Assembly (NCBI RefSeq): GCF_028473665.1
Contig: NZ_CP098774.1
Location: 2,542,001 to 2,606,000, forward strand
Direction of reading: 5' to 3'
Origin: Sphingomonas sp. QA11
Lineage (GTDB): Bacteria > Pseudomonadota > Alphaproteobacteria > Sphingomonadales > Sphingomonadaceae
DNA: 64,000 nucleotides
The position numbers and the translations under genes are program-made. This document shows positions 5,282-13,566 of this stretch, piece after piece (position 1 is the stretch's first letter; the number at the start of each line of letters is the position of its first letter). The notes below the pieces were generated by a model, which saw nothing but the letters and a program-made list of their open reading frames with translations, ran no database searches and was not told where the DNA came from.

Positions 5282-5962
5282 TCAATCGCCGCGGTCGCGG
5301 CTGAGATCCTCGACCTCGCCCATGATCGAATCCAGCGCCGTCATGCCCGGCTCGTTGCTGTGCGTGCGCCGCGACGGGAGCGAGTTGTCGTTCATGATCG
5401 TCTCAAGCGCGACTCGGCCACGCGCCACCCGGCTCTTGATCGTGCCGACAGCGACGCCGCAGATTTCGGCCGCTTCCTCATAGGCAAAGCCGCCCGCGCC
5501 GACCAGGATCAGCGCCTCGCGCTGCGGTTGCGGCAGATGGAGCAGCGCGCGCTGCATGTCGCCAAGCTCGACGTGCCGGTCCTGGCTCGCCGGGGCGGCA
5601 AGGATCCGGTCGGCGACCAGATCGTCCCATTCGCCCTTGAAGCGCGCACGGCGCATCTGGGAGAGATAGAGGTTGCGCAGGATGATGAAGGTCCAGGCGC
5701 GCATGTTCGTGCCGGCCTGGAAGCGCAATCGCGCCGCCCATGCCTTCATCAGCGTCTCCTGGACCAGATCGTCAGCGAGATCGCGATTGCCCGACAGCGA
5801 CCGCCCGAAGGCGCGCAGATGCGGAATTACCTGCGCCAGTTGCGTCTTGAACTCGGAATCGGACAGGGCGACATGCTCCACCGGCTCGGGCGGCGTATCC
5901 TCGTCGTCAGTCTCGAAGGCGTCGGTCATGAACATCCGTTTCGTGTTCCAGGAAGCGAACAT
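5282..5962 (-). CDS. ecfG: EcfG-type RNA polymerase sigma factor (general stress response)
   Basis: Extracytoplasmic-function sigma factor of the EcfG (ECF15) group. In alphaproteobacteria it drives the general stress regulon and is held by NepR until PhyR~P releases it. Region 2 is visible around HLRAFGRSLSGNRDLADDLV with NMRAWTFIILRNLYLS. Region 4 carries QREALILVGAGGFAYEEAAE and GTIKSRVARGR, the GAGGFAYEEAAEIC stretch being characteristic of this group. There is an extra ~35-residue C-terminal tail. The start is uncertain: ATG 5962 follows a hairpin with no ribosome site, and ATGs at 5935 or 5929 are also plausible. It is transcribed in the phyR direction, after the 45-aa membrane protein gene, rather than with nepR. 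Confidence 0.88.
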   Translation of the reverse strand: MFASWNTKRMFMTDAFETDDEDTPPEPVEHVALSDSEFKTQLAQVIPHLRAFGRSLSGNRDLADDLVQETLMKAWAARLRFQAGTNMRAWTFIILRNLYLSQMRRARFKGEWDDLVADRILAAPASQDRHVELGDMQRALLHLPQPQREALILVGAGGFAYEEAAEICGVAVGTIKSRVARGRVALETIMNDNSLPSRRTHSNEPGMTALDSIMGEVEDLSRDRGD

Positions 5963-6234: not shown

Positions 6235-7041
6235 TCAGAGTGCGGGAACTGTCGCTGAATCGAAGAACAATGCCTGGCTGATCGCCGCTTTCACCGTCGA
6301 TCGCTGGAACGGTTTGGTGATCAGGAAGGTCGGTTCGGGCCGCTCGCCGGTCAGCAGGCGTTCCGGGAAAGCGGTGATGAAGATCACCGGCACCTGGAAC
6401 TCGGCAAGGATGTCCTTCACCGCGTCGATGCCCGAGCTGTCGTCGGCAAGCTGGATGTCCGCGAGCACGAGGCCGGGACGATCCTCCATCGCCAGCGCGA
6501 CCGCCTCGTCGCGGGTCACGGCGACGCCGGTGACGTCATGGCCCAGATCGCGCACGATCGTTTCTATATCCATCGCGATGATCGGCTCGTCCTCGATGAT
6601 CAGCACTCGCGCGCGCGTCTGCTTCTCGATCTCGGCCAGCGCTTCGTTGACCAAAGCGTCGACCTCGCCCGGCTCGACCTCGATCAGATAGGCGGCGTCT
6701 TCCGGCGTGAAGCCTTCCATCGCGGTGAGCAGCAGCGCCTGGCGCGACAGCGGGGTCATCCGGGCAAGGCGTGCCCGGGCGATCGCCTCCTGACTGCTGC
6801 TGGCATCGGCCCCCGCATTCTCGGGCGTCTCGTCATAGTTGGTCGATCCCCAGATCGCCTGGAACGTCCGATAGAGACCAAGCCGCGGGTCGACGTCGCG
6901 CGGGAATTCCGCAGGCGCGGCGACGATCGCTTCGAGCGTCGCGCGCACATAGCGGTCGCCGTGCTGCTGGCTGCCGGTCAGCGCCCGGCCATAGCGGCGA
7001 AGGAAAGGAAGGTGGGGGGCAAGCTGCTGTCCAAGCGACAT
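6235..7041 (-). CDS. phyR: PhyR: sigma-factor-like response regulator, anti-anti-sigma factor
   Basis: Master regulator of the alphaproteobacterial general stress response. Residues ~1-135 mimic EcfG (region 2-like GQQLAPHLPFLRRYGRALTG; region 4-like MTPLSRQALLLTAMEGFTPE). Residues ~143-260 are a receiver domain with the acidic pair (IIEDEP), phospho-acceptor Asp near residue 195 in LVLADIQLADD, and the conserved Lys in FLITKPF. When phosphorylated it binds NepR and frees EcfG. The start is placed at ATG 7041, giving the family-typical MSLGQQLAPH N-terminus. An in-frame TTG at 7062 would add seven atypical residues. It is divergent from nepR. Confidence 0.95.
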   Translation of the reverse strand: MSLGQQLAPHLPFLRRYGRALTGSQQHGDRYVRATLEAIVAAPAEFPRDVDPRLGLYRTFQAIWGSTNYDETPENAGADASSSQEAIARARLARMTPLSRQALLLTAMEGFTPEDAAYLIEVEPGEVDALVNEALAEIEKQTRARVLIIEDEPIIAMDIETIVRDLGHDVTGVAVTRDEAVALAMEDRPGLVLADIQLADDSSGIDAVKDILAEFQVPVIFITAFPERLLTGERPEPTFLITKPFQRSTVKAAISQALFFDSATVPAL

Positions 7042-7168
7042 GGCTGTCGGGGTCTCCTCCAAGAAAAACGCCAGGGTCTGACGGGGGTCCTTGTGGAAGC
7101 GGCCCCCCGCCTTTGCAACGCGTTTCGATAGCCCGAGCGAAGGTGCCGGGCTTTTTCACATCGAACAG

Positions 7169-7193: not shown

Positions 7194-7298
7194 TCATGCA
7201 TTCGTCGCGGATTGTATGCGCGATATGCCCGGCCGTTTTCCTCGGCCGGGTTTCTCGATATGCCCGGTTTATACACCGGATGCTCAAGGGGGACGATT

Positions 7299-7463
7299 TT
7301 GCGTTCGGGCGACGAGTCTTCGAAAAAACCGCGAGCCACAAAGGCGACCAGGGTCCAGAGCAAGGACCGTGATATGGGTGCAGCATTGCGCACCGTGTAT
7401 CAGAAGACGGTGGACGAGACGATTCCGCCCGAAATGCTCGACCTCCTGAGCAAGCTCGACTGA
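7299..7463 (+). CDS. nepR: NepR anti-sigma factor (TTG start)
   Basis: Small protein that binds and inactivates EcfG until captured by phosphorylated PhyR. The diagnostic core is complete: MGAALRTVYQKTVDETIP followed by PEMLDLLSKLD. The best start is TTG 7299, six bases after an AAGGGGG ribosome site, giving 54 aa with a basic N-terminal tail (SSKKPRATKATR), as usual in NepR. An internal ATG at 7374 would leave only 29 residues and no tail. The stop is 8 bp before the phyP start, so nepR and phyP form an operon divergent from phyR. Confidence 0.9.
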   Translation: MRSGDESSKKPRATKATRVQSKDRDMGAALRTVYQKTVDETIPPEMLDLLSKLD

Positions 7464-7471
7464 GCAGGCTC

Positions 7472-9055
7472 ATGGCGGATTCCGCCGCCGGGCCCCAGGC
7501 TCCGGCCCGAAACCAGAAATTCGTCGCGCAGATCCCGACCGGCGCCAAGATCTTCCTGATCCTGAGCGCGGCGTTGCTGCCGCTTGCCATCATCGCCTTC
7601 TTCGCTTCGCTGAAGACCACTCAGACCGCGGACGAAACTGCCCGGGCACAGCTCCGCCTCGCTTCCGCCGAAAGCGCCCGAAAGCTGGCCATCGAGCTGG
7701 TCGGGGACATGACCGCGCTCCGTGTCGCCCTGAACGCCCTCGACATCGACAATGGCGATGCGCCCAGCTGTGCCCGCGCGCAGGGCGTCTTCGCGCAGCA
7801 GGCGGTCAGCGGCACGCGCTTCGTCATCAGGGATCGCCGCGCCCGGACCTTGTGCGGCGCGGATTTCCCGCGCGATCTGGCGCGGGTGCCGGCCAACACC
7901 GAACCCATCGCCGCCCGGGTCGTCCCGGGTCGCGGCCTGCTCCTCTCCATCGCCGGCGCCAGCGGCACCACCGCGACCGCATTCTTTCCCTCCGGCTTCC
8001 TCGCCGAAACAGGCAAGCCAAGCGATTTCGCACCACCCTATGAAGCCGTGCTGACACATGGGGAAGGCTCACTGCCCCTGACTCAACTTCCGCCTCGCAG
8101 CGCGCTGGAACGGCGCGAGACGATGCGAACCTCGCTCGGCCTTGGCGGTCTGGCGCTGCAGACGAGCGTGCGCAGCGCGCCGATCACGTCGCCCCTCCTT
8201 ATCGCGATGCTGCTGCCGATTCTGATGTGGGCGGCCGCGGCGGGCATCGGCTGGTTCGTCGTTGACCGGTTGCTGATCCGTCCACTCCGCCGACTGCGGA
8301 CAAGCGTCGCCGCCTATGTACCCGGCGAGGAGATCGACCCGGCCGAAGTCCGCGCCCTCCCCGCACAGGAAATTCGGGAGCTGGGCGACACTTTCCGCAT
8401 GATCAGCCGGACGGTCGCCGAGCACGAGGCCGGCCTGGCCGAGGGCCTGGTGCGCCAGACCCGGCTTACGCGCGAGGTCCATCACCGCGTGAAGAACAAT
8501 CTCCAGGTCATTTCGAGCCTGATCAATTTCCATGCCCGCGGTGCACGCAGCAAGGAAGCGACCGCCGCCTATTCCTCGATCCAGCGTCGGGTCGACGCAC
8601 TCGCGGTCGTCCATCGCCACCATTTCGCCGAGCTCGAGGAGAATCGCGGCCTCTCCCTCCGATCCGTGATCGGCGAGCTTGCCTCGAACATCCGTGCGAC
8701 AGCGCCGGAAGGGTCTTCGCAGCTCGGCATTGCGATCGATATCGATCCGTTCCTGGTCAACCAGGACGTCGCGATCGCGGTTGCCTTCCTGATCACCGAA
8801 ATCGTCGAGCTGGCGATGACCTCCAATCCGGTCGCGCAGATCCGTATCTCGGTGAAGCCGGGCGAGACGCAGGATCGCGCCGTGCTGCGGGTCAATTCCC
8901 CCGCCCTGGTCGACGGAGACGACCTGCGCAAGGTCGTCGAGGAACGCTATGGCCGCGTGATGGAAGGCCTGTCGCGCCAGTTGCGCTCAAGGCTGCATCA
9001 CGACCCGCTGGTCGGCGCCTACGAGATTTCGATCGCCGTCACCGGGCGTGACTGA
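7472..9055 (+). CDS. phyP: PhyP-like HisKA_2 sensor kinase homologue
   Basis: Membrane sensor of the general stress response. N-terminal TM ~25-46, an extracytoplasmic domain with two Cys (about residues 100 and 128), TM ~242-264, HAMP-like linker, then a HisKA_2 dimerisation domain. The phospho-His (about 338) lies in EVHHRVKNNLQVISSL. The ATPase part is degenerate: where related kinases have a TELVTNAL-type N box, this protein reads TEIVELAM, and no clear G1/G2 glycine boxes are visible. In Sphingomonas, PhyP, encoded beside nepR, acts as a PhyR phosphatase and negative regulator. Position and degeneracy fit that role. Naming rests on context; kinase activity is unlikely but untested. Confidence 0.85.
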   Translation: MADSAAGPQAPARNQKFVAQIPTGAKIFLILSAALLPLAIIAFFASLKTTQTADETARAQLRLASAESARKLAIELVGDMTALRVALNALDIDNGDAPSCARAQGVFAQQAVSGTRFVIRDRRARTLCGADFPRDLARVPANTEPIAARVVPGRGLLLSIAGASGTTATAFFPSGFLAETGKPSDFAPPYEAVLTHGEGSLPLTQLPPRSALERRETMRTSLGLGGLALQTSVRSAPITSPLLIAMLLPILMWAAAAGIGWFVVDRLLIRPLRRLRTSVAAYVPGEEIDPAEVRALPAQEIRELGDTFRMISRTVAEHEAGLAEGLVRQTRLTREVHHRVKNNLQVISSLINFHARGARSKEATAAYSSIQRRVDALAVVHRHHFAELEENRGLSLRSVIGELASNIRATAPEGSSQLGIAIDIDPFLVNQDVAIAVAFLITEIVELAMTSNPVAQIRISVKPGETQDRAVLRVNSPALVDGDDLRKVVEERYGRVMEGLSRQLRSRLHHDPLVGAYEISIAVTGRD

Positions 9056-9096: not shown

Positions 9097-9121
9097 GGAA
9101 CCGGTCAGCGAAAGCTACGTT
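9097..9121 (+). promoter_or_regulatory. Consensus EcfG promoter
   Basis: GGAAC (9097-9101), a 16-bp spacer and CGTT (9118-9121) match the EcfG/sigma-T consensus exactly. It begins 42 bp after the phyP stop. Transcription would start near 9127 and run into the C-rich hairpin RNA and terminator ending at 9232, before the small lipoprotein gene. Confidence 0.75.
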
Positions 9122-9126
9122 CTTAG

Positions 9127-9232
9127 CTTCGGATAGTGAATTTATGCCCCCCCGCTCTCGCTATCCAAGACATGGGCCCGAAAGCGTCAACCCTCCCCCC
9201 CGGTGGCGCTCTCGGGCCCAAATTCTTTTTTG
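9127..9232 (+). ncRNA. Candidate EcfG-dependent small RNA with two C-rich loops
   Basis: About 105 nt bounded by a consensus EcfG promoter and a rho-independent terminator, with no convincing reading frame. Hairpin 1: 9132-9140 pairs with 9159-9167 (9 bp, one U-G), leaving an 18-nt loop holding seven consecutive C (9148-9154). Hairpin 2: 9175-9182 pairs with 9213-9220, then after one mismatch 9184-9187 with 9208-9211. Its loop also holds seven consecutive C (9196-9202). A U6 tract follows at 9227-9232. Exposed C-rich loops that pair with ribosome-binding sites are typical of alphaproteobacterial sRNAs, including the sigma-T-dependent GsrN of Caulobacter. Homology to GsrN is not claimed. The alternative is that this is only the 3' end of nepR-phyP mRNA. 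Confidence 0.6.
9175..9232 (+). terminator. Strong rho-independent terminator
   Basis: A GGGCCCGA / TCGGGCCC stem (8 bp, then 4 more after a mismatch), a 20-nt C-rich loop, and a TTTTTT tract at 9227-9232. It ends the putative small RNA and would also stop read-through from nepR-phyP. Confidence 0.85.
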
Positions 9233-9261
9233 GCTCAAGGATATTGCGCCGCTCCTTCCAC

Positions 9262-9286
9262 GGAACGAACGCGACCGCCGATCATT
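9262..9286 (+). promoter_or_regulatory. Second candidate EcfG promoter (entericidin-like gene)
   Basis: GGAAC (9262-9266), N16, CATT (9283-9286), 8 of 9 consensus positions. Transcription would begin ~25 bp before the lipoprotein start codon at 9315, downstream of the terminator at 9232, so the lipoprotein gene has its own likely stress promoter. Confidence 0.5.
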
Positions 9287-9314: not shown

Positions 9315-9449
9315 ATGCGTAAGCTCGTTGGACTGGCCCTCGTCGCCGGAGCGCTGATGATCAGCGCCTGCAACACCGTCGAAGGCATGGGCAAGGATGT
9401 GTCCTCGGCCGGCAGCACCGTCGCCAAGACGGCTGACCAAGCCAAATAG
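9315..9449 (+). CDS. Entericidin A/B-family small lipoprotein (44 aa)
   Basis: Tiny envelope lipoprotein of the entericidin type. It has a signal peptide (KLVGLALVAGALMISAC) with a lipobox Cys near residue 18, followed by the family pattern NTVEGMGKDVSSAGSTVAK. An AGGAG ribosome site lies 8 bp before ATG 9315. In enterics, entericidins are stress-induced bacteriolytic lipoproteins and antidotes. In sphingomonads small proteins of this kind are commonly stress-induced, which fits the preceding EcfG-like promoter. The exact role is unknown. Confidence 0.88.
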   Translation: MRKLVGLALVAGALMISACNTVEGMGKDVSSAGSTVAKTADQAK

Positions 9450-13536: not shown

Positions 13537-13566
13537 CGGGGCTGCCTATCAGGAAGCCCCCCCGTC

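Follow-up and report, generated by a model that had tools for sequence, protein, structure and literature searches.

A conserved candidate small RNA with C-rich loops beside the general stress genes of Sphingomonas

Genes and features of the locus

The analysed window, a stretch of 64 kb from the genome of Sphingomonas sp. QA11, contains a phyR-nepR-phyP locus together with an ecfG-like gene. In the general stress pathway, stress activates PhyR, PhyR sequesters NepR, and EcfG is freed. The original prediction placed an unannotated small RNA (sRNA) directly after nepR-phyP, and this location was confirmed by Pfam, which identified NepR and the HWE kinase as well as PhyR and the ECF sigma factor (Table 1). 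Downstream of the sRNA, Pfam also assigned TatC. This genome carries one copy of the element.

Table 1. Coordinates of genes and sequence features at the stress locus (position 1 is the first nucleotide of the window)
Feature	Position	Strand	Evidence
ecfG-like ECF sigma factor gene	5282–5962	−	PF04542, PF08281
phyR	6235–7062	−	PF22029, PF22233, PF00072
nepR, putative start	7284–7463	+	PF18557 on 7284–7460
phyP-type HWE/HisKA_2 histidine kinase gene, upstream of the sRNA	7472–9055	+	PF07568/PF07536
−35 element GGAAC of the σEcfG-type promoter	9097–9101	+	exact match
−10 element CGTT, N16 spacer from −35	9118–9121	+	exact match
sRNA body according to the covariance models R1 and R2	9126–9226	+	R1 118.2 bits (this sequence is among those used to build R1), R2 106.9 bits
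Hairpin 1, 9-bp stem GGATAGTGA/TCGCTATCC	9131–9166	+	predicted fold; 8 of 9 pairs with changes on both sides
Loop 1 motif TG-CCCCCCC-GCTC, proposed base-pairing seed	9145–9157	+	conserved in the 53-locus set, predicted unpaired
Hairpin 2, C7 loop at 9195–9201, terminator-like	9174–9219	+	predicted fold; 17 of 18 helix pairs with changes on both sides
T6 tract, putative transcript end	9226–9231	+	sequence
Second EcfG-like site, GGAAC-N16-CATT, preceding the entericidin gene	9262–9286	+	sequence
Entericidin EcnA/B-like lipoprotein gene	9315–9449	+	PF08085

The site in front of the entericidin gene resembles one given for transcript #1442 of S. melonis Fr1 in the available text of an earlier study, where this transcript is described as 'Predicted small secreted protein' (GGAACGAATGGCCCGACCGATCATT, log2 ratio −4.7) (PMC6599016). 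Transcript #1442 is probably the same gene as the entericidin gene of the window.

Homologous loci and gene order

The element was detected by BLASTN (E ≤ 0.01) in 197 of 201 Sphingomonas genomes; three of the four genomes without a match are less than 85% complete, while one (G193) is 98% complete. DNA was inspected for the best 30 of the 197 matches, and 18 of these 30 sequences were used to build the covariance model R1. This model yielded 105 matches in 103 of 298 family genomes, representing 35 of 96 genera; in many other genera of Sphingomonadaceae the element went undetected. Of the 105 matches, 55 were inspected, namely two paralogues (L064 and L089) and 53 loci that are compared below; three of the 53 belong to the genus of the window, one being the window itself.

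The usual gene order is phyP, RNA, entericidin gene and tatC. Among the best 30 genus loci, phyP was found upstream in all 30, tatC downstream in 28 and the entericidin gene downstream in 26. Within the flanks of the 53 further loci (1.5–2.5 kb), phyP was present upstream in 41, the entericidin gene downstream in 42, tatC in 45 and at least one of them in 51, some of the misses being due to the shortness of the flanks. In genome G229 (L301, 3600–4250, minus strand), phyP, the entericidin gene and tat genes are kept, and in the interval between the first two no copy of the sRNA was seen.

Promoter of the candidate sRNA

A perfect GGAAC-N16-CGTT promoter had been predicted, and it is present exactly at 9097–9121. 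When both strands of the window were scanned for GGAAC-N15-17-CGTT, this was the only match. Since 1.17 chance matches are expected in shuffled sequence of 64 kb, the motif by itself is weak, proves nothing and was rejected as sole evidence; it is the comparison with relatives that makes the assignment of a promoter and an RNA convincing. In all of the best 30 genus loci (of 197), a GGAAC…NGTT site precedes the first stem by not more than 45 nt. The site starts 34 nt before this stem in 28 of them and 35 nt before it in L031; the promoter of L005 was missed in this count of distances, for which a stricter −10 element was used. In 52 of the 53 further loci, the site begins 28–32 nt ahead of the modelled RNA start, L083 being the locus without a site. 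GGAAC serves as −35 element in all 52, the spacer comprises 16 nt in 48 and 17 nt in four, and the −10 element is CGTT in 41, GGTT in nine and TGTT in two. The spacer is mostly near random (0.02–0.34 bits per position), with the exceptions of the base after GGAAC (1.52 bits) and one other position (0.63 bits). Elsewhere in these loci, the same motif occurs at a background rate of about 1.8 × 10⁻⁴ per position. As the regular expression itself fixes most of the two boxes, the evidence for the promoter lies in its position and frequency.

For Sphingopyxis, the EcfG promoter was described as GGAAC-N16-CGTT (available text of PMC7083833), and for S. melonis as GGAAC-N17-20-GTT (available text of PMC6599016). 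These published motifs agree with the promoter found here, the one of S. melonis being close. The GGAAC-N16/17-NGTT promoter that marks the σEcfG regulon was thus in place at the genus loci and at nearly all further loci.

Predicted structure and 3′ end

The promoter was predicted to be followed by a segment of ~105 nt with two hairpins, each presenting a C7 loop, and folding bore this out. For the interval 9127–9233, the predicted fold had −45.8 kcal/mol compared to a mean of −27.55 kcal/mol for shuffled sequences (z = −5.13), and none of 200 shuffles was as stable. The C7 run of loop 1 occupies 9147–9153. The sRNA would be expected to start near 9127 and to end near 9231. The strong U6 terminator that was also predicted stood in part: the T6 tract is present here, but a strong T tract is not general, a run of at least five T near the modelled RNA end being found in 21 of the 53 loci. 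Hairpin 2 was absent from the output of a simple terminator scan, which allows loops of 3–8 nt only.

No Rfam family matched the element at or above its gathering threshold, and the only Rfam match of the window was a tRNA. Scr3202 of Streptomyces (RF02833) reached 27.5 bits (cut-off 52) in a weak whole-length alignment and was rejected; this likeness is most likely a chance similarity of GC-rich hairpins. Plasmid and phage records contained no match to the element at E 10⁻³.

Covariation and conservation of the loops

Conservation of the stems in relatives had been named beforehand as a check, which the element passed. In an alignment of 49 sequences, which was fitted to the model and is hence biased towards it, 94.2% of the cells were paired compared to 81.4% after shuffling, and 25 of 29 pairs had changed on both sides. 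None of 500 shuffles reached any of five covariation measures, a result that is not to be read as a probability because shuffles ignore relatedness; in slid controls the paired fraction dropped to 34–46%. In a structure-blind MAFFT alignment, used without a shuffle control, two-sided changes were likewise visible in hairpin 1 and in the lower part of hairpin 2. Within the genus, covariation was modest (4 of 28 pairs).

The C-runs, whose conservation had likewise been named as a point to check, were kept in both loops, with loop 1 nearly constant. Its run comprises six or seven C in 46 of the 53 loci, has GCTC after it in 50 and TG before it in 49, and the run of loop 2 varies from 5 to 13 C; the model through which these loci were found was trained on the genus and favours the loop motif. 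The median unpaired probability of the C-run over the 53 loci was 0.88 for loop 1 and 0.99 for loop 2. In the divergent copies L124, L125, L126, L128 and L322 the C-run is retained and the GCUC after it is absent. By inspection, a loop like loop 1 sits on different stems in the two paralogues and in two weaker copies, L203 and L207. Constancy of loop 1 while the stems differ points to this loop as the functional seed.

Several loci represent second copies or diverged relatives, in which a C-rich loop with GCTC sits on different stems. These are L089 (2446–2540, plus strand) and L064 (2545–2638, plus strand) and, among the loci listed, L203, L207, L219 and L183. A GGAAC…GTT site lies upstream of L089, L203, L207, L219 and L183, but not of L064; in the last four of these it was demanded by the scan pattern.

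Distribution beyond the genus

A wider model (R2, 49 sequences) used with strict filters matched 65 of 246 order genomes in 14 of 71 genera, and all 65 belong to Sphingomonadaceae. G629, a genome of the same genus as the window, gave no R2 match under these filters, and weak matches without a promoter in G237 and G623 (locus L321) were left out of the copy count. R2 was also run with laxer filters on 40 genomes that R1 had not matched, 39 belonging to genera in which R1 had matched nothing, and 23 of the 40 had some match at E ≤ 0.5. Most of these resemble plain terminators without a promoter, whereas L124, L125, L126 and L128 have a promoter and two C-loop hairpins, and so has L322 from a further genus. 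The genus of L124 was already among the 35 reported by R1 and the other four loci add four genera, so that at least 39 genera carry the element if the figure of R1 is taken as it stands. The copy L322 (genome G287) adjoins tatC. No convincing copy was seen in 28 phyR regions taken from genomes without an R1 match, including G287 and G623, each of which has an R2 match elsewhere. Several promoter-like sites followed by C5 in these regions were rejected, as the fold is not one of two C-loop hairpins.

Class-wide, R2 matched 6 of 385 genomes. Two are Sphingomonas, and by inspection the other four have no EcfG promoter at that place. Three of the class-level loci (L121–L123) look like GC-rich terminators or repeats on inspection; L120, from another family, has two C-rich hairpins at 1501–1596 (34.5 bits with R2) and no EcfG site, and all four were rejected. 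No convincing homologue was found outside Sphingomonadaceae with R2 in these 385 genomes, GsrN of Caulobacter being compared by description only.

A scan of labelled genomes for promoter and loop gave at least 80 loci, at least 35 of them labelled Sphingomonadales. Among the loci listed, R2 matched 33 of the 35 with this label, three weakly (L203, L207 and L219), and also the more vaguely labelled L183 and L228, and none of the other 43. Two loci were missed by R2, L180 (Novosphingobium panipatense) and L233, and on inspection both resemble coding sequence. Strong carriers among the matches listed include Sphingomonas, Sphingobium, Stakelama, Sphingorhabdus and Pacificimonas. A term search of papers on Zymomonas sRNAs tied no homologue to a named Zms RNA.

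The sRNA was not found in the literature searched by title and beginning of the abstract; supplementary files and subscription papers, e.g., the dRNA-seq study on TFA, may list an unnamed transcript. A find-search of the available main texts of PMC6599016, PMC7083833 and PMC5898713 gave no sRNA at this locus.

Search for targets

Candidate sites complementary to loop 1 were searched narrowly, with ATG starts and two G-rich patterns. GCGGGGGG-N2-12-ATG occurred 16 times in the own genome (9 in the control) and GAGCGGGGG-N2-14-ATG 165 times in 21 genomes (100 in the control). No genus-conserved target gene was present among the 30 of the 165 GAGCGGGGG loci that were inspected, and a target could be missed because DNA was seen for these 30 matches. 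A G6 stretch precedes the start of flgC in this genome (L352/L354) and in G033 (L355). As a conserved target flgC was rejected: its first 60 residues were found in 6 of 41 genus genomes, and G6 is missing from the four remaining leaders that were inspected, that of L359 having G5. Similarly, GAGCGGGGGGC precedes the ATG of mutL in three Sphingomonas genomes, G010, G113 and G019 (L394, L395 and L392), and mutL was rejected since 2 of 50 mutL leaders (L394–L443) contain it; these leaders were drawn from the 128 genomes with a match among 131 searched, and G019 was picked because of its match. Single appearances were ftsA (L366), a pyrB-like gene (L379) and a lipoprotein gene (L351), with names read from the translations.

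Two side observations were made. Most of the mutL leaders inspected share a TTGG(G/T)CTA box ~10 bases before the start codon, and their transcripts may be near-leaderless. In the window, a G7 run on the minus strand (13557–13563) that precedes the start of nagZ (13536) by ~20 nt is complementary to loop 1 (CGGGGGGGC).

Discussion

The element is real and conserved, and it has no Rfam family. Its reading as a general-stress sRNA is partly supported as a whole, namely by the fixed EcfG-type promoter, the covarying stems, the conserved C-rich loop and the linkage to phyR-nepR-phyP. We regard it as probable that a trans-acting, EcfG-driven sRNA of ~105 nt is encoded here that pairs with G-rich mRNAs. 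Judging from the promoter, RNA polymerase with σEcfG would transcribe it once PhyR has removed NepR. The RNA would fold into the two hairpins, and its conserved 5′ loop (UG-C6-7-GCUC in most copies) could pair with G-rich stretches near ribosome sites or in mRNA leaders, assisted by the C-run of the second loop. Such pairing would change translation or stability of the mRNAs, and the sRNA would thereby add a post-transcriptional arm to the general stress response of sphingomonads. In this sense we infer its expression and EcfG dependence as well as its pairing partners, the sign of regulation and a possible need for Hfq.

The closest precedent is GsrN of Caulobacter crescentus (ccna_R0081), for which the available text of the GsrN study describes an EcfG/SigT-type promoter and six tandem C in the 5′ loop; the data given there fit a role of these six C in target choice, and pairing with the G-rich katG leader raises KatG (PMC5869019). 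According to the same text, homologues are predicted in Caulobacteraceae and Rhizobiales, and most GsrN relatives lie near the stress locus, as is the case here, C. crescentus itself being the exception (PMC5869019). For the Rhizobiales RNAs, assignment rested on closeness to this locus together with an EcfG site, and for some of them on expression as well (PMC5869019, available text); compared by description only, they have a C-rich 5′ loop as here, whereas the gene order differs.

GsrN and the sRNA described here share a size of ~100 nt, an EcfG-type promoter and, by the fold predicted for our sequence, a C-rich 5′ loop, and both carry a terminator in the 3′ half, intrinsic in GsrN and terminator-like in hairpin 2. 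Two marks of the GsrN family, the C-rich 5′ loop in an RNA of ~100 nt and closeness to the phyR/nepR/ecfG locus, were thus found, the former in the predicted fold. Further traits of this family are cleavage to a 5′ isoform, stabilisation by Hfq and targeting of katG. Unlike GsrN, the sRNA has two C-rich loops, loop 1 being mostly UG-C6-7-GCUC, and its gene follows phyP. The resemblance is one in kind, and the mechanism is proposed by analogy. The element is very probably a σEcfG-dependent sRNA working like GsrN. Other sRNAs with C-rich loops, such as RsaE of Staphylococcus and CcsR of Rhodobacter, expose a C-rich single-stranded seed for G-rich mRNA sites, and differ from the present one in promoter, fold and lineage.

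In a reading compatible with the preferred one, the gene could be truly orthologous to gsrN of Caulobacter, divergence having made this unrecognisable by sequence. Class of sigma factor, size, C-rich 5′ loop and the proximity to the stress locus seen in most GsrN relatives speak for it, but the outcome of the class-wide R2 search speaks against it, with GsrN known by description, as does the statement in the available text of the GsrN study that no gsrN-like gene is apparent in Erythrobacter litoralis (PMC5869019). We consider orthology doubtful. Somewhat less likely still is an RNA induced by stress that uses its C-rich loops to bind or titrate a protein, or some other G-rich RNA, with no regulation by mRNA pairing. 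Two predicted single-stranded C-rich loops would suit such a role, and the target search gave no conserved mRNA start with complementarity to loop 1; however, this search was narrow, and GsrN, whose promoter is of the same class and whose loop is also C-rich, sets a precedent for base pairing (PMC5869019, available text).

The segment might also have no role in trans and simply form the 5′ leader of the mRNA for entericidin, or else the 3′ end and terminator of nepR-phyP. It does share its strand with phyP and the entericidin gene, which flank it, and read-through is possible because the T tracts are often weak. We nevertheless judge this very improbable: the entericidin gene has an EcfG-like site of its own, the promoter ahead of the RNA recurs in the further loci, no entericidin gene was seen downstream at 11 of the 53 loci (some with short flanks), and a terminator needs neither a conserved loop nor paralogues elsewhere (L089, L064). 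A short coding region is scarcely conceivable. Some open frames cross the segment, but sequence changes preserve base pairs, and the length of the loop-2 stretch modulo 3 is distributed 14/8/8 over the best 30 genus loci; since varying C-runs change the frame, a coding frame was rejected.

Returning to the preferred trans-acting sRNA, a broader view can be offered tentatively, with the odds rather against it: a Sphingomonadaceae-wide RNA family with EcfG-driven siblings might have arisen independently of GsrN as a post-transcriptional arm of the stress response, its two C-rich loops holding two G-rich sites at once. The covariance model combined with the promoter register allows easy annotation of the gene in related genomes. 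In the available texts of the papers checked, the sphingomonad EcfG response has so far been described as a regulon of protein genes. If the proposed function is true, an sRNA with an EcfG-type promoter of its own next to the genes of the switch could enable EcfG to turn genes down as well, and EcfG-linked C-loop RNAs would not be limited to Caulobacterales and Rhizobiales.
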